From positions 601,652 through 665,651 of the forward strand of contig NZ_JAAOEN010000001.1 in NCBI RefSeq assembly GCF_011320225.1: a stretch of 64,000 nucleotides of DNA, given 5' to 3'. Source of the DNA: Phytoactinopolyspora limicola. GTDB taxonomy: Bacteria > Actinomycetota > Actinomycetes > Jiangellales > Jiangellaceae. The position numbers were made by a program, and so were the translations under genes. Positions 5,904 through 54,006 of the stretch are shown piece after piece. The notes beneath the pieces were generated by a model. That model saw only the letters and a program-made list of their open reading frames with translations. It ran no database searches and was not told the origin of the DNA. How positions within the stretch are numbered: the first letter of the stretch is position 1; each line of letters starts with the position of its first letter.

Positions 5904-5990
5904 GCGCGGGTGGCGGAATAGGCAGACGCGCACGGTTCAGGTCCGTGTGTCCGAAAGGACGTGGGGGTTCAACTCCCCCCTCGCGCACCA
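5904..5990 (+). tRNA. tRNA-Leu, anticodon CAG
   Basis: 87 bases including an encoded 3' CCA. The acceptor stem GCGCGGG pairs with CTCGCGC, and the discriminator is A. The anticodon stem CACGG/CCGTG (5931-5935/5943-5947) encloses a TTCAGGT loop with anticodon CAG at 5938-5940. A long variable arm (GTCC GAAA GGAC) marks a class II tRNA, and the T loop is GTTCAAC. It reads CUG, the dominant leucine codon in this high-GC genome. Confidence 0.97.
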
Positions 5991-6043: not shown

Positions 6044-6056
6044 GCGCCGCCCCCGG

Positions 6057-6665
6057 TTGTGCACCTGATCTCCGTTTTGTCACCTGATCTTCTTTGTGGC
6101 GACGATCAGATGCACGGAGGCGACGACGCTGCTGGTCAGCGCGGTGGGTGCTGCATCTGATCTCGTCTCATGACGTGGACGGTGGGCGATCAGATGCACG
6201 ACAACCGCTTTCAGGAGCGCATCATGCATCTGATCGTCCAGCACGCCGGGCGATTCTTGCCCCGCGCGGTCCGACGTGCGCTTGGGGCCACACGCAGTGC
6301 ATCCGGACAGGACATACATCCAGGTAGGACGAACACCCAGGCCGGGCGTACGCCGCGGTGGCTCCGCACCCCGTCGGGGCCTACAACCACACCGGGCCGC
6401 ACCCCGGATGGGTCTACCGCGGCACGTGGCCGCACCTCGGTTGGGGTGTGTCCCGCAACGACGCGGTCGACGCCAAACGGGGCCGACGATCAGATGCACT
6501 ACCCACCGATACACCCCGGTTCGTGCATCTGATCGCCCACCGTCCACGTCATGAGACGAGATCAGATGCAGCACCCACCGCGCTGACCAGCAGCGTCGTC
6601 GCCTCCGTGCATCTGATCGTCGCCACAAAGAAGATCAGGTGACAAAACGGAGATCAGGTGCACAA
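6057..6665. repeat. Large palindromic element, copy A
   Basis: The outer arms 6057-6201 and 6521-6665 are 145-base inverted repeats with no mismatch that I can find. Twelve copies of a motif of the form GATCAGATGC or GATCAGGTG occur in alternating orientation (starts about 6062, 6081, 6104, 6153, 6188, 6226, 6488, 6523, 6560, 6607, 6633, 6652). The fourth and its mirror (6226 and 6488) form a nested inner pair. The central 6240-6480 is GC-rich with loosely repeated CACCC/GGGTG phrases. Open frames run through it on both strands but mirror each other and look non-coding. The ends match copy B at 52280-52885. It lies between tRNA-Leu and a minus-strand methyltransferase. No transposase and no target-site duplication were seen. 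Confidence 0.9.
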
Positions 6666-6743
6666 TCGGGGTGGTTTCCGCGGCCTCTTAGGCTGCCCGC
6701 CGCTCGTTCAGGACCTGTCCTTTGGCTTGGCTGCCCGCGCGAC

Positions 6744-7808
6744 TTATGGTTTGGCCTCCAAAATCAGGTTGAGAGGCGTCTCGGCAACCCTGCGGAAGCG
6801 TGAGTAACCGGCCTCGTCGAACACCGCGCGAAGCCGCGCCTCCCCCGCCTGAGGGCCGAGCCCGAGGCCGACCTCTTGCGACAGCGAGTTAGGTGTACAC
6901 ACCGTTGCCCCCGCGGTGTAGCCGAGTGCCGCCAACGGGTTCTCCGTCATGTTCGCCGCGCGGTCGTCGAGGGCGAAGGGTTCAACCAGCAGAACACTGC
7001 CCTCAGGGCTCAGCCTCTGTCGTGCGTATCTGGCGATGCCAACGGGATCACCCATGTCGTGGAGGCAGTCGAAGAAGCAGATCAGATCGAACGTCCCGCC
7101 ATAGCTCTTGGCGTCCGCGACGGCGAAACTCGTCCGATCTGCCACGCCCGCCTCGGCGCAACGCTGGGCGGCGATCTCGATCGACGCGGCGTGAAAGTCG
7201 AAGCCATAGACGTGTGCACCTGGATAGGCCTCTGCCATCACCACACACGACGCACCATGCCCACAGCCGACGTCGGCGATCCGGCCGCCGTTGGACAGCG
7301 TGGTATGGGTCCCGTCCAGCATGGCCAACCAGGCTGGCAACTCGGCCCGGTAGCCGCCTCGGAAGAACCATTCGGTGCCTTCGAATAGGGCCGCATCGTG
7401 GTCGCTCCACGACAATCCGCCGTCGCCGCGATATGCGTCGGCCAGTTTGTCGAGGTCGCGGTAGAGAGATCCGAACGCCTGGATCGCCCGGGCCATGAAG
7501 GCGGGTGACGTGTCGTCGGCCAGCGTCAGCGCCGCTTCTGGACTCAGCTCGTAGGTGTCGGTGGTTCCGTCGTAGGTGACCAGGCCGCCGGCGGCCTGGC
7601 CGTCGATCCATTGCCGGACCAGCGTCGGGTGGCAGCCAGACCGTTTGGCTACCCCGTCGGCGGTCATCGGGCCTTGGCCCGCCATCGCCCGATACAGACC
7701 CAACTCGTCACCCAGCCAGATGGCGAAGCTGAGTACGGCGCCGGTGAGATACCCGGCCACGTGACCGCCGAACTCCTGCAACCGTTCCTCGTTCACGTCC
7801 ACAGACAT
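6744..7808 (-). CDS. Class I SAM-dependent methyltransferase with winged-helix N-domain
   Basis: 354 residues from the ATG at 7808, which has an AGGAG ribosome site; a longer upstream reading lacks one. The N-terminal region (about 1-110) resembles the winged-helix domain seen in Rv2258c-type methyltransferases. The Rossmann methyltransferase domain has an intact motif I (IADVGCGHGASC, about residue 180), an acidic residue after strand 2 (YGFDFH), and LICFFDCLHDMGDPVG. The substrate cannot be predicted. It is transcribed alone toward palindromic element A, ending 79 bases before it. Confidence 0.85.
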   Translation of the reverse strand: MSVDVNEERLQEFGGHVAGYLTGAVLSFAIWLGDELGLYRAMAGQGPMTADGVAKRSGCHPTLVRQWIDGQAAGGLVTYDGTTDTYELSPEAALTLADDTSPAFMARAIQAFGSLYRDLDKLADAYRGDGGLSWSDHDAALFEGTEWFFRGGYRAELPAWLAMLDGTHTTLSNGGRIADVGCGHGASCVVMAEAYPGAHVYGFDFHAASIEIAAQRCAEAGVADRTSFAVADAKSYGGTFDLICFFDCLHDMGDPVGIARYARQRLSPEGSVLLVEPFALDDRAANMTENPLAALGYTAGATVCTPNSLSQEVGLGLGPQAGEARLRAVFDEAGYSRFRRVAETPLNLILEAKP

Positions 7809-8039
7809 GATGCTCCTCTCGATGTGGACGGCAATTGCCACGGGAGATGCACCACGACGGTGGGCCTCGCTGATCCGCATGCCGGCTCAGCCGACCCCTC
7901 TTCGGCTATGACCGCACCCGGCGACATCCCCTTGCGGCAATGTCTCGATCACCAGTCAAGGGCAAGTCATGGTCTGGTAAAGGCGGCGTCCGACACACAT
8001 CCGCCTATCGGCTGGGGCAGCTCCGGCGGGCCAACGGCC

Positions 8040-50188: not shown

Positions 50189-51255
50189 CCAGCAACCCGT
50201 CCGGGGCCGCGCCCCGCTCGACGTGGACAGGGAAGAACGACCGGGCTCCGGCGCGGGCGAGCGACGGTGCCGGATCTTCGGATCGGGCGCCGCGACCGGT
50301 GCCGTTCGATCCAGAGCTACGCGCGGCCCTCGCCCTGTTCAAGGCCGAGATCGAGTTCGAGCCGTTGGGGCCCCGCACGATCCCGTCGTACCGGGAGCGA
50401 CTAGCCGAGTCGGCCGAATCGCTCGACGAAGTCATCGCCGGGCGGCCGGTCGAATATGAGGACCGGGTCATCCCCGGCCCGCCCGGCGCTCCTGACCTGA
50501 CCGTTCTCGTGCTCCGGCCGCGGGGAGGTACCCGCAGGGCGCCCGGAATGTATGCGATCCACGGCGGCGGAATGGTGCTGGGGACCCGCTTCGGCGACTC
50601 ACACAATCTGGTCAACGCCGTCGTCGATTTCGGCGCCGTCGTCGTGTCCGTGGAGTACCGGCTGGCACCGGAGCATCCCCATCCCGCTCCTGTCGACGAC
50701 TGCTACGCCGGCTTGTTATGGACCGTCGACCACGCTGCCGAACTCGGCATCGATCCGGCGCGTCTGGTGATCCGAGGCGGCAGCGCCGGAGGAGGCCTCG
50801 GCGCGGCGATAGCCCTCATGGCGCGCGACCGAGGCGGGCCCGCGGTGGCCGGTCAGATGCTGATCTGCCCCATGATCGACGATCGCAACAACACCATCTC
50901 CACCCGTCAGTTCTACGCGCTGGGCCTCTGGGACGGCGGCTTCAACGAAACCGGGTGGACCGCACTGCTCGGCGACGCCCGGGGTGGGCCAGACGTGCCA
51001 GCCTACGCCGCGCCCGCTCGGGCCACCGATCTTGAGGGCCTGCCACCGGCCTTCATCGAGGTTGGCGCGGCTGAGGTGTTCCGCGACGAAAGCGTCGATT
51101 TCGCCAGCCGGATCTGGGCCGCCGGTGGGCAGGCAGAGCTGCACGTATGGGCTGGGGCGTTCCACGGATTCAGCAGCGTGATGCCGTACGCCCATGTGTC
51201 CAAGGCCGCCCTGGCCGTGCGTCGATCCTGGCTGGCTCGGATGTTCGCGACGTGA
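50182..51255 (+). CDS. HSL-family alpha/beta hydrolase (esterase paralogue 2)
   Basis: 357 residues from a GTG at 50182 (GGAGG 7 bases upstream, inside the aldo/keto reductase gene). It has an extra basic N-terminal segment of about 30 residues compared with its paralogues. HGGGM, YRLAPEHPHPAPVDDCYAGL, elbow GGSAGGG, FRDESVDF and AFHGFSS provide the oxyanion hole and triad. Translational coupling to the reductase gene implies consecutive steps. Confidence 0.92.
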   Translation: MVTSNPSGAAPRSTWTGKNDRAPARASDGAGSSDRAPRPVPFDPELRAALALFKAEIEFEPLGPRTIPSYRERLAESAESLDEVIAGRPVEYEDRVIPGPPGAPDLTVLVLRPRGGTRRAPGMYAIHGGGMVLGTRFGDSHNLVNAVVDFGAVVVSVEYRLAPEHPHPAPVDDCYAGLLWTVDHAAELGIDPARLVIRGGSAGGGLGAAIALMARDRGGPAVAGQMLICPMIDDRNNTISTRQFYALGLWDGGFNETGWTALLGDARGGPDVPAYAAPARATDLEGLPPAFIEVGAAEVFRDESVDFASRIWAAGGQAELHVWAGAFHGFSSVMPYAHVSKAALAVRRSWLARMFAT

Positions 51256-51296
51256 CAGCACCCGTCGCGTCGCCAACCAACGCGAAGGAGATCCGC

Positions 51297-52316
51297 ATGA
51301 CCAGCCCAGAAGCCGACGTCGAGCAACTCGTCACCATCGCCACCGGCTACATGGCCGCCAAGCAGCTTGTCGCTGCCCAGAAAAGCGGGTTGTTCCAGGC
51401 ACTGGCAGCAGGACCACGAACCGCGGCGCAGTTAGCCGAGGAACTTGGTCTCCAAGAACGAGTGGTGCGCATCCTCGCCGATTCGATGAACGCGGTGGGA
51501 CTGCTAGAACGAAACGACGGCAGCTACAGCAACGGGCGGGCCGCGAACACGCACCTCAGTGGGGGCGCCGCGCTTGACCTCGGGGAGTTCCTCACCTTCC
51601 TCGACGCGGTCAGCTACCCGCAGTGGCTCCAGTTCGAGACCACCGTCGCATCCGGCCGGCCAGGCGTACTCGACCTGGACGGGATCGAGCCGGAGCTGAT
51701 CGGAGCCGGCATCGGCGCCTTCCAGAAGCTCCACGCGGCGATGCTCGCCCGCGAGTTCGACTTCACCCCGTTCCGGACGATGTTGGACCTCGGCGGGCAG
51801 AGCCCGTGGTTCGCCATCGAAGCCATGTCGGCCAACCCGGACCTGCGAACGACGTTCGTCTACACCGAGGACGAGACACCGTCCATCCGCGCCGCCGTCG
51901 ACGCCGCCGGGCTCGGCCGCCGATCCCGGTTCGAGCCCGCGGATACCGTGACCGCCACCCCGGCGGGGTGGTACGACGTTGTACTCCTCAACCACTGCGT
52001 GCACCGTTTCACCGCTGACCAGAACACCGCGATCCTGGCCCGTGCACGTGCCGCGGCGGCGCCCGAAGCGACGCTGGTGATCGTCGACTTCTTTCTCGAC
52101 GCGGACCCCAGGCAGCGCATCCTGGATGCCATGCACGCTGCCGAATATCTCGTGATCGACGGGACGATTGCCTACCCACTGGGCGACGTCGAGGCGTGGC
52201 TGTCCGGAACCGGCTGGCGGCCGACGCACACCGCGGTACTGCCCGGCGGCCCACGCGCCATCGTCGCCAGCGCCACCTCCCCCCGTTGTGCACCTGATCT
52301 CCGTTTTGTCACCTGA
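51297..52316 (+). CDS. O-methyltransferase-like protein with altered SAM motif
   Basis: 339 residues from the ATG at 51297 (AAGGAG upstream). The N-terminal winged-helix dimerisation domain (ATGYMAAKQLVAAQKSGLF; PRTAAQLAEELGLQERVVRILAD) is as in plant-type O-methyltransferases. Motif I reads MLDLGGQSPWFAIEA, where the usual GGxG glycine is replaced, so SAM binding is doubtful. The last 11 codons (CAPDLRFVT region) and the stop lie inside palindromic element B, so the native C-terminus has been replaced. Confidence 0.82.
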   Translation: MTSPEADVEQLVTIATGYMAAKQLVAAQKSGLFQALAAGPRTAAQLAEELGLQERVVRILADSMNAVGLLERNDGSYSNGRAANTHLSGGAALDLGEFLTFLDAVSYPQWLQFETTVASGRPGVLDLDGIEPELIGAGIGAFQKLHAAMLAREFDFTPFRTMLDLGGQSPWFAIEAMSANPDLRTTFVYTEDETPSIRAAVDAAGLGRRSRFEPADTVTATPAGWYDVVLLNHCVHRFTADQNTAILARARAAAAPEATLVIVDFFLDADPRQRILDAMHAAEYLVIDGTIAYPLGDVEAWLSGTGWRPTHTAVLPGGPRAIVASATSPRCAPDLRFVT

Positions 52317-52885
52317 TCTTTTTCGTGGGAGCGATCAGGTGTGCTGAACGGCGGGGATCGGCGCGGTCTGGGCATCTGATCGCGTCTCAGGGTGCGGACG
52401 CGCGGCGATCAGATGCGTTGCCTGACACATGAACGCGGGTTAGCGCATCTGATCGTTGTCGCCTCCGGGGTGTCGAGTGGCAGACCAGGCGGGCATCGTC
52501 GTCGCACACCGAAGCGACCCATAGGCAGGCGGTCGGCGCTACGGCCCGACCGAGCATCCGGCATGGCACGCTGAGGTGTTCCACAAACTCGGACATACCG
52601 CCCACGTGAGCAACGTTTCACCGTGCCACGCACAACACCTCAACGAGCCACGCGCCGCCGTGCCACGGCACCGTCGGCACACCCCGCCTGTGGCCCACCC
52701 TCCCGGCGACGATCAGATGCACCAACCCAGCCAAAAACCATGATCGATGCATCTGATCGCCGCGCGTCCGCACTCTGAGACGCGATCAGATGCCCAGACC
52801 GCGCCGATCCCCGCCGTTCAGCACACCTGATCGCTCCCACGAGAAAGATCAGGTGACAAAACGGAGATCAGGTGCACAACGGGGG
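52280..52885. repeat. Large palindromic element, copy B
   Basis: The outer arms 52280-52416 and 52749-52885 are 137-base inverted repeats with only two differences, both T/G or G/T pairings on the plus strand. Twelve GATCAGRTGY-type motifs occur (starts about 52291, 52310, 52333, 52372, 52407, 52445, 52711, 52749, 52784, 52823, 52847, 52866) in the same alternating order as copy A. The ends (TTGTGCACCTGATCTCCG and following) match copy A, while inner arm sequence differs. The central 52460-52700 has no coding signal. The element lies between convergent genes and overlaps the 3' ends of both. Confidence 0.92.
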
Positions 52886-53844
52886 TGGAGGATGCGCTCC
52901 AGCCAGGAGCGGCGCGCGGCCAACGCGGCCTGTGCCACCCTGGCCTCGGGCACGGACGTGAAGCCGTGGAATCCACCAGCCCAGACATGCAGTTCAGCCT
53001 GGCCGCCGGTGGCCCAGATCCGGGTCGCATACGCCACGTTCTCGTCCCGGAACACCTCCGCCGAACCTACCTCGATGTACGCCGGCGGCAGGCCGGATAG
53101 GTCGGTCGCGCGGGCCGGGGCGGCGTACGGCGAAACATCTGGTCCACCGCGCGCGGAGCCCAGCAGCGCTGTCCATCCGGCATGGTTGTAGCTCCGATCC
53201 CAGAGCCCGACGTCGGCGTATTGGTGGCTTGAGACGGTGTTGTTTCGGTCGTCGATCATCGGGCAGATGAGGCCTTGTCCGGCCAACGCCGGGCCACCGC
53301 GGTCCCGGGCCAGCAGGCTCACTCCGGCAGCTAGGCCGCCTCCGGCGCTCGCACCGATCACCACCTGGCGGGCGGGATCGAAACCGAGCTCTGCCGCGTG
53401 GCCGGCCATCCACACGAGTCCTGCGTAGCAGTCCTCTACTGGTGCTGGATGTGGCGCTTCCGGTGCGAGGCGGTACTCGACCGACCCGACGACGACGCCG
53501 TGGTCGACCACCATGTCGAGCAGGTTGACCAGCCCGCCCGTCCGGCTGCCGAGGATCATGCCGCCACCGTGGATGTTGTAGATCCCTGCTCCCCCGGTCG
53601 GCCCCTGCGGGCGCAGCACGGTGACCACGACGTCTGGTGCGCCGGGTGGTCCGGGAACGGTGTGATCGGTCCATTGGATCGGGCGGTCACCGATCAGCTC
53701 AGGCAGCGGGATCTCGAAGCCGCGGAACCGGCGGCGGGTGTCCAGGATGGTGTGGGGGGTCAGTGGCCCCGGCTCCATGCGCTGCTTGCTGGCGTGAAGG
53801 GCAGGGATCAGCTCGGGGTCGTACGGTACGCGCTGCGCCGGCAT
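52849..53844 (-). CDS. HSL-family alpha/beta hydrolase (esterase paralogue 3)
   Basis: 331 residues from the ATG at 53844 (GAGG 5 bases upstream), the only esterase copy on the minus strand. HGGGM, YRLAPEAPHPAPVEDCYAGL, elbow GASAGGG, FRDENVAY, GFHGFTS. Its paralogues end around RVLDL or RMFAT; this one runs into element B and ends HPRCAPDLRFVT, the same tail as the convergent methyltransferase. The tail is element-encoded and unlikely to be functional. Confidence 0.92.
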   Translation of the reverse strand: MPAQRVPYDPELIPALHASKQRMEPGPLTPHTILDTRRRFRGFEIPLPELIGDRPIQWTDHTVPGPPGAPDVVVTVLRPQGPTGGAGIYNIHGGGMILGSRTGGLVNLLDMVVDHGVVVGSVEYRLAPEAPHPAPVEDCYAGLVWMAGHAAELGFDPARQVVIGASAGGGLAAGVSLLARDRGGPALAGQGLICPMIDDRNNTVSSHQYADVGLWDRSYNHAGWTALLGSARGGPDVSPYAAPARATDLSGLPPAYIEVGSAEVFRDENVAYATRIWATGGQAELHVWAGGFHGFTSVPEARVAQAALAARRSWLERILHPRCAPDLRFVT

Positions 53845-54006
53845 CGATACCTCGGCTCTCGTGAGCGGTTGCGATGTCATTCATGGTGGCCAGGACGCTG
53901 ACCGGGGGTAACCGCCAGTTGGCTCTCAATCGGGCGGAGGCTGCGAAGCGGTGGCGGTACAGGGTGCGGCGGTGGCTGGCTAGCCTGACGACTTCTTTCG
54001 AGACAT

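Follow-up and report, generated by a model that had tools for sequence, protein, structure and literature searches.

Dispersed palindromes of helically phased GATCAG arrays in Phytoactinopolyspora limicola and their apparent pairing with an AbiEi-DUF559 endonuclease gene

The window analyzed here, 64,000 nucleotides of Phytoactinopolyspora limicola contig NZ_JAAOEN010000001.1 (G000:C1:601652-665651, from the 6.59-Mb, 40-contig genome G000), contains two near-perfect palindromes. Copy A, 607 bp long with its TG...CA ends (6058-6664), lies between a tRNA-Leu(CAG) gene that reads toward it (5904-5990, plus strand) and a convergent methyltransferase-domain gene (6744-7880, minus strand). Its inverted arms of 151 nt each (left, 6051-6201, plus; right, 6521-6671, minus) are 99% complementary and take in part of a C-rich flank on the left and of a G-rich flank on the right. 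The stretch between the arms (6202-6520) has sites at 6230 and 6488, and no gene was identified in it. Copy B is 592 bp long with its TG...CA ends (52287-52878), and its arms of 137 nt each (left, 52280-52416, plus; right, 52749-52885, minus) are also 99% complementary. Genes read into copy B from both sides, an O-methyltransferase gene (51147-52316, plus strand) and an alpha/beta-hydrolase gene (52849-53880, minus strand). Both of these frames terminate inside the element, the former at a TGA in the second end site and the latter at the mirror-image TGA.

The motif GATCAGRTGY occurs 20 times in the window, always within copies A and B, compared with a mean of 0.54 and a maximum of 4 in 100 shuffled sequences. 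When just the six-base core is considered, there are exactly 12 sites per copy, ordered <<><><><><>> (where < is CTGATC and > is GATCAG). The successive site spacings are 19, 20, 53, 31, 42, 258 (the centre), 41, 31, 53, 20, and 19 in copy A and 19, 20, 43, 31, 42, 262 (the centre), 42, 31, 43, 20, and 19 in copy B. They are near-identical, the chief difference being the gap of 53 in copy A versus 43 in copy B. These comparisons confirm the preliminary description of two palindromic copies with twelve motifs each in the same alternating order. The description had also given the copies identical ends of about 40 bases; the ends are indeed shared but are 36 and 35 bases long. The whole window had no Rfam match at the gathering score.

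Copies A and B belong to a large dispersed family. The three-site end CTGATC-N13-CTGATC-N14-GATCAG was found in the genome 83 times in the forward and 77 times in the reverse orientation with zero mismatches (87 and 80 times with up to two mismatches), and a reversed-pattern control of this end had 0 occurrences. All 98 stretches around such ends matched an array profile at E < 1e-4, and in 93 the match was strong and long. Because L093 and L118 are one 2.2-kb sequence, the 98 stretches represent 97 distinct loci. Some of these loci are halves at contig ends, which puts the copy number at about ninety among the matches listed. The element ends counted were 64 left and 58 right. L093 and L118 (G000:C18:36800-39000 and C36:327700-329900) are identical over the 2.2 kb and carry a single array each, either a recent duplication or an assembly duplicate. 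A supposed composite element at C7:51786-57594, a 5.8-kb pair, proved to consist of distinct elements separated by several ordinary-looking reading frames.

Inverted pairs of arrays were present at 62 of the 84 interior loci of the genome and absent from 22, according to a rule-based call. In 46 elements from this genome, the outer 135 nt of the two arms agreed with a median of 87%, compared with 68% between elements (1,035 pairs). Arm identity was at least 95% in 12 of these elements, 85 to 95% in 16, and less than 85% in 18, a spread indicating that near-perfect palindromy is common but not required. The unit of the family is an array of six sites, <<><><, that spans about 180 bp and has a fixed outer end. 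Haloactinopolyspora alba had single arrays, with pairs at none of its 17 loci (16 with a profile match), and in Phytoactinopolyspora alkaliphila arrays were paired at 3 of 14 loci and single at the rest. Site order and spacing in these single arrays were mostly the same as in P. limicola. The palindromic form is therefore an array dimer.

The sites of the array keep helical phase. Among 111 own-genome arrays, the gap between sites 3 and 4 was 42 to 43 bp in 47 and 52 to 55 bp in 61, with none of 44 to 51 bp; the other gaps were 23, 63, and 171. In 29 arrays that have lost site 4, the distance from site 3 to site 5 was 73 to 74 in 4 and 83 to 85 in 23, the others being 292 and 330. Both sets of counts take in the duplicate locus L093/L118. 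The same gap classes dominate at the loci of other genomes (42 to 44 in 33 and 53 to 54 in 12), where scattered values come from loci that were read as chance matches. Cooperative proteins on double-stranded DNA need steps of one helical turn. The spacer between sites 4 and 5 (for example, 6163-6187 of the window) contains a conserved TC.CA..aTgtGGACg, which is not a GATCAG site and is perhaps a second binding site.

The initial view that the palindromes contain no transposase or other recognizable gene is upheld for copies A and B within the scope of the Rfam comparison, which gave no match, but not for the family. In element L076 (G000:C7:70125-71598), standard 12-site arms enclose an intact gene, P0001, that codes for 310 amino acids and, at 0.93 kb, occupies most of the 1.14-kb centre. 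P0001 matched the AbiEi models of PADLOC (best E value, 9e-19) and had no match of its own in Pfam or NCBIfam. Of 19 homologues compared with Pfam, AbiEi_4 was matched by 11 and DUF559 also by 11. The homologues' six Pfam families (AbiEi, DUF559/MTES_1575 types, and one stray) did not include a Y1 HUH model. Residues invariant in the 19 sequences included S205, E208, D239, E250, G253, D265, and R268, and we take the conserved acids to be the catalytic acids of the PD-(D/E)XK fold. A profile of the homologues matched PDB entry 3hrl, an endonuclease-like protein (E value, 1e-4). P0001 thus consists of a predicted N-terminal AbiEi-like DNA-binding part and a predicted C-terminal DUF559/Vsr-like PD-(D/E)XK endonuclease. 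There were 10 matches to P0001 in the P. limicola genome, and matches were present in 20 of the 23 genomes searched. No viral relatives of P0001 were found by tblastn among 12 pattern matches.

Orthologues of P0001 with 55 to 64% identity, one per genome, were found in P. alkaliphila (G004; 64%), H. alba (G011; 58%), Jiangella gansuensis (G014; 55%, a broken gene), G010, G013, G015, and G018. Equally spaced sites lie on both sides of the gene in the three named species and on the 3' side alone in the other four genomes, and the orthologues adjoin GATCAG-type sites in three Jiangellaceae genera. The 3' neighbor of the gene is common to four Jiangella loci (L223, L318, L319, and L231) and H. alba. 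The 5' neighbor in H. alba is similar to a neighbor in P. limicola (74% over 338 amino acids), where the gene is turned round relative to it, and the P. alkaliphila locus (L222) has no neighbor in common with the compared orthologue loci. In part of the family, then, the gene has been maintained by descent.

The general array pattern was found in 7 of 148 genomes, all of them Jiangellaceae, with 160 matches in P. limicola, 36 in P. alkaliphila, 35 in H. alba, 27 in J. gansuensis, and one each in G015, G020, and G021. Eight of the 22 family genomes have this type of gene (at least 55% identity; search threshold of E 1e-3 for G001 to G014 and 1e-50 for G015 to G021), and 4 of these 8 have many arrays; G010, G013, G015, and G018 have kept the gene without many arrays. 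None of the 14 family genomes without the gene type has more than one pattern match. The Fisher probability of this association, calculated by hand with phylogeny ignored, is about 0.01. Pattern matches outside the Jiangellaceae (metagenome-assembled genomes, Leucobacter, Mycobacterium, and others) were attributed to chance, with no six-site order among the matches listed; a Reichenbachiella locus (L302) among them had four sites with fitting gaps. A narrow spacer pattern taken from the P. limicola arrays matched the window's own genome only, among 80 genomes, and was not found in GTDB contigs, viral contigs, plasmids, or phages, collections from which the P. limicola genome is perhaps absent. 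The family is real, large, and limited to the Jiangellaceae among the 148 genomes searched.

We consider it reasonably probable that the palindromes are dispersed non-autonomous repeats served in trans by P0001, a vertically inherited AbiEi-DUF559 endonuclease. As a pairing of gene and repeat, this would appear to be a new type of mobile DNA in bacteria. The arrays' architecture, copy number, phasing, and polarity, the gene within them, its shared neighbors in part of the family, and the match of motif to protein in three motif classes are features of the genomes themselves, and from sequence we infer that the P0001 enzyme binds the sites, cuts, and copies. In the mechanism that we propose, the AbiEi-like part of P0001 would bind GATCAG sites, and several molecules would assemble on the helically phased sites to form one nucleoprotein complex. 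The nuclease would then cut or nick at the outer end of the array, and repair or replication would copy the array elsewhere, chiefly just past the stop codon of a gene. Two arrays in inverted orientation would make a palindrome, and recombination between the paired arms may keep them alike. Copy B and element L067 on contig C2 are 97.5% identical over 611 bp, and the likeness stops within about 14 bp of the element edges. Several points count against the proposal: the absence of target duplications from 45 complete elements, which makes us slightly less confident; the lack of an empty site in G001 to G004, where an orthologous locus usable for copy B and a tRNA-linked one for copy A were both missing; the four genomes that keep the gene without many arrays; the ACCGACAT palindromes of P. 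alkaliphila, with no homologue of the corresponding identity class found there, and its P0001 orthologue with no shared neighbor; the 15 homologue loci without excess flank sharing; and the want of a Pfam or NCBIfam match for P0001 itself. The interpretation offered in the preliminary description is partly supported. Its suggestion of a non-autonomous mobile palindrome fits the many copies and this nearly identical pair at two loci, and its suggestion of a multi-site protein-binding platform fits the helically quantized spacing. Further copies, which it had proposed to look for, proved to be many and dispersed, and no catalogued Rfam family matched. It overlooked the gene-bearing copy, the single-array state of the relatives, the location next to the 3' ends of genes, and the link to an endonuclease.

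The placement of the elements is biased toward the 3' ends of genes, to which most outer ends are turned. Of 144 element edges in this genome, 118 had a best reading frame pointing toward the element and 24 one pointing away, and no frame was called at 2. Both neighbors point inward at 33 of 49 complete elements, and of the 118 frames that point toward the element, 61 stop no more than 12 nt from the edge. The same caller gave 252 toward, 169 away, and 59 none at 480 random positions, which is a rough control because such positions are mostly inside genes. In relatives, 13 of 17 arrays of H. alba and 11 of 14 of P. alkaliphila have their outer side toward a gene end, compared with 8 of 17 and 10 of 14, respectively, for the inner side; on these inner-side counts, polarity among the relatives is clear only in H. 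alba. Element ends (for example, 52287-52318 of the window) have CCTGATC repeats 19 nt apart that supply TGA stops in two frames, or in three frames where the end carries three such repeats. Insertion into the end of a gene can thus give a clean stop.

One possibility for this bias is that the arrays are a host platform at the 3' ends of genes that acts in termination, insulation, or chromosome organization and to which the AbiEi-nuclease binds as a regulator or repair factor, with spread being incidental. The positions of edges and outer sides would be expected under this explanation, as would phased spacing of the type seen for proteins on double-stranded DNA, gene neighbors common across genera, and the absence of target duplication. 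However, pattern counts within one genus swing from 160 to 36 to 0, near-identical copies lie at separate loci, both frames that flank copy B end within the element, and the nuclease residues are invariant in 19 sequences. We therefore regard the host platform as an unlikely, though credible, explanation.

A second alternative is that the elements are ordinary MITEs that an unrelated DDE transposase mobilizes in trans and that the AbiEi-nuclease gene is a passenger. IS21, Mu, and Tn7 are DDE transposons with multi-site ends, and the palindromes resemble them and MITEs in their TG...CA ends, in having several sites per end, and in the existence of gene-less copies. An inverted array pair in P. 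alkaliphila (L254, 2380-3470) encloses a putative glyoxalase-like reading frame instead of the endonuclease gene, which makes passengers in arrays possible. However, none of 45 complete elements had an exact flank duplication of 3, 4, 5, 6, or 8 nt beside the TG/CA ends, the same type of gene lies between arrays in P. limicola, P. alkaliphila, H. alba, and J. gansuensis, and homologues of the gene match other motifs. Further differences from IS21, Mu, and Tn7 are the six phased alternating sites, the lone arrays that persist in relatives, and the fact that no DDE transposase was seen with the arrays, IstB being the one searched for in the genome. IS21 had been considered on the strength of the TG...CA multi-site ends, and the search for IstB (PF01695) gave three weak matches (40.5 bits; 24.2 bits, with neighbors, against a cut-off of 24.1; and one below the cut-off) with no link to arrays seen. 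This model is unspecific, as control matches were obtained in 13 of 14 genomes. We regard movement by an unrelated transposase as quite improbable.

The arrays are themselves entered by an insertion sequence, which we take to be IS481-like. Thirteen fetched contig ends stop in its end sequence (L066, L090, L094, L096, L115, L127, L128, L130, L181, L186, L188, L189, and L208), 10 with at least three GATCAG/CTGATC array sites nearby and 3 with one site; another fetched contig end (L129) lies within an array without the insertion sequence. The ends of this resident insertion sequence carry two TCGGGACATCGCTGAC repeats and are unlike array ends, a further point against ordinary transposase-driven MITEs. 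A similar end on a Gordonia plasmid (80% over 50 bases) adjoins an rve-type transposase. Some insertion sequences likewise target REP sequences.

Two other explanations are much weaker. A defense or conflict system, with a nuclease directed against foreign DNA and arrays acting as sinks or self-marks to hold it, would account for the PADLOC matches and for the 10 matches to P0001 in one genome, but there is no room for an AbiEii-type (DUF1814) partner between the L076 arms, and dispersed palindromes at gene ends would not be expected of a defense locus, so that we consider it very improbable. Least credible of all is the large structured RNA that was also suggested initially: long palindromes self-fold and convergent genes could transcribe them, but there is no Rfam match, the unpaired single arrays of H. 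alba hold the same spacing, and the spacing is quantized by the DNA helical turn.

Dispersed palindromes are numerous in bacterial genomes, but to our knowledge a responsible enzyme has been argued for in few cases, the main one being REP sequences with RAYT. The preferred reading, dispersed repeats served in trans by P0001, has much in common with that system. In the REP/RAYT/REPIN literature (PMC3116915 and PMC3733652; see also PMC8049555), a repeat population occurs within one genome as singlets and inverted doublets, a nuclease gene is flanked by the dispersed repeats and kept by descent, and repeats are located past genes and between convergent genes. In contrast, the enzyme here is AbiEi-like with a DUF559 PD-(D/E)XK domain rather than a Y1 HUH transposase, the repeat unit measures 180 bp and has six sites, as opposed to a 20- to 40-nt hairpin with a GTAG or CGTC tag, and the host is an actinomycete, whereas the main text of PMC3733652 does not contain the word actinobacteria. 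Because both enzyme and repeats differ, the family is not a member of RAYT/REPIN, even though it would work alike.

The AbiEi-like region suggests a second comparison. AbiEi antitoxins of the AbiE type IV toxin-antitoxin system are described as binding inverted repeats, two sets in one case (PMC7319586). P0001 shares the DNA-binding region, but its C terminus is a predicted endonuclease instead of the antitoxicity domain of AbiEi, no partner gene lies inside the L076 arms, and the sites are genome-wide. By the Pfam matches of its homologues, the C terminus is in the nuclease fold class of the Vsr-type restriction endonuclease domain MTES_1575/DUF559. The passages of PMC3710099 that treat MTES_1575 describe it as a domain of a HEPN-family conflict protein and mention no repeat population. 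Among the papers listed for open-licence PubMed Central, no title or abstract opening connected AbiEi, DUF559, or MTES_1575 proteins with a repeat population. If the proposed pairing is correct, it would be a second, unrelated one and would show that repeat populations within genomes come about repeatedly around nucleases. It would also point to a role for the AbiEi-DUF559 proteins, which bear Pfam names that are either antitoxin-like or denote no function. The pairing can be tested at the bench because the sites, the spacing rule, and the candidate enzyme are all named.

Other homologues of P0001 are flanked by other motifs. A homologue in G009 (52%) is flanked by GATCATGAG arrays or pairs, and the GATCATGAG pair motif (up to one mismatch) has 40 copies in G009 and one each in G001 and H. 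alba, with none in the 57 other genomes. G009 and H. alba are two species of one genus in which the motif differs as the protein differs. In G001, G003, and G005, the homologue genes have CCGACAT-type pairs on their flanks, spaced 32 to 33 bp apart. In a tree of 20 homologues, which has several weak branches, the CCGACAT genes stand apart from the GATCAG genes. No motif was found at the two homologues of G002. The spacing of flank motifs was compared at 14 loci, with loci and motifs picked after looking.

The match between left and right flanks exceeded in length the 95th percentile of 702 cross-locus pairs at 12 of 27 homologue loci, compared with about 1.4 expected. This test left out L229, L231, L233, L240, and L247, which are broken, partial, or unaligned. 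The 15 loci at which the percentile was not exceeded include L227 and L241, where no motif was seen, and 5 of the 7 P0001-type loci, at which the sites vary in sequence around the core. Judging from the flanks, the motif follows the protein rather than the host where tested (three motif classes). It is possible, although we put this tentatively and a little short of an even chance, that the AbiEi-DUF559/Vsr endonucleases of actinobacteria are a new "repeat master" class. Each paralogue would be flanked by its own palindromic sites and would maintain a genome-wide population of them, with a PD-(D/E)XK endonuclease rather than a transposase driving the spread; simple inverted pairs would be ancestral, and phased arrays would have been elaborated in one clade.

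The palindrome ACCGACAT-N22-ATGTCGGT occurs 24 times in G005, 7 times in G003, 3 times in G001, 11 times in P. alkaliphila, and once in P. limicola and is absent from 55 other genomes. No homologue of the 44 to 50% identity class that marks the clade with this motif was found in P. alkaliphila despite its 11 palindromes. The dispersed ACCGACAT...ATGTCGGT palindromes (loci L320, L321, and L323 to L326) are 38 nt long and are apparently cognate to another AbiEi-DUF559 paralogue.
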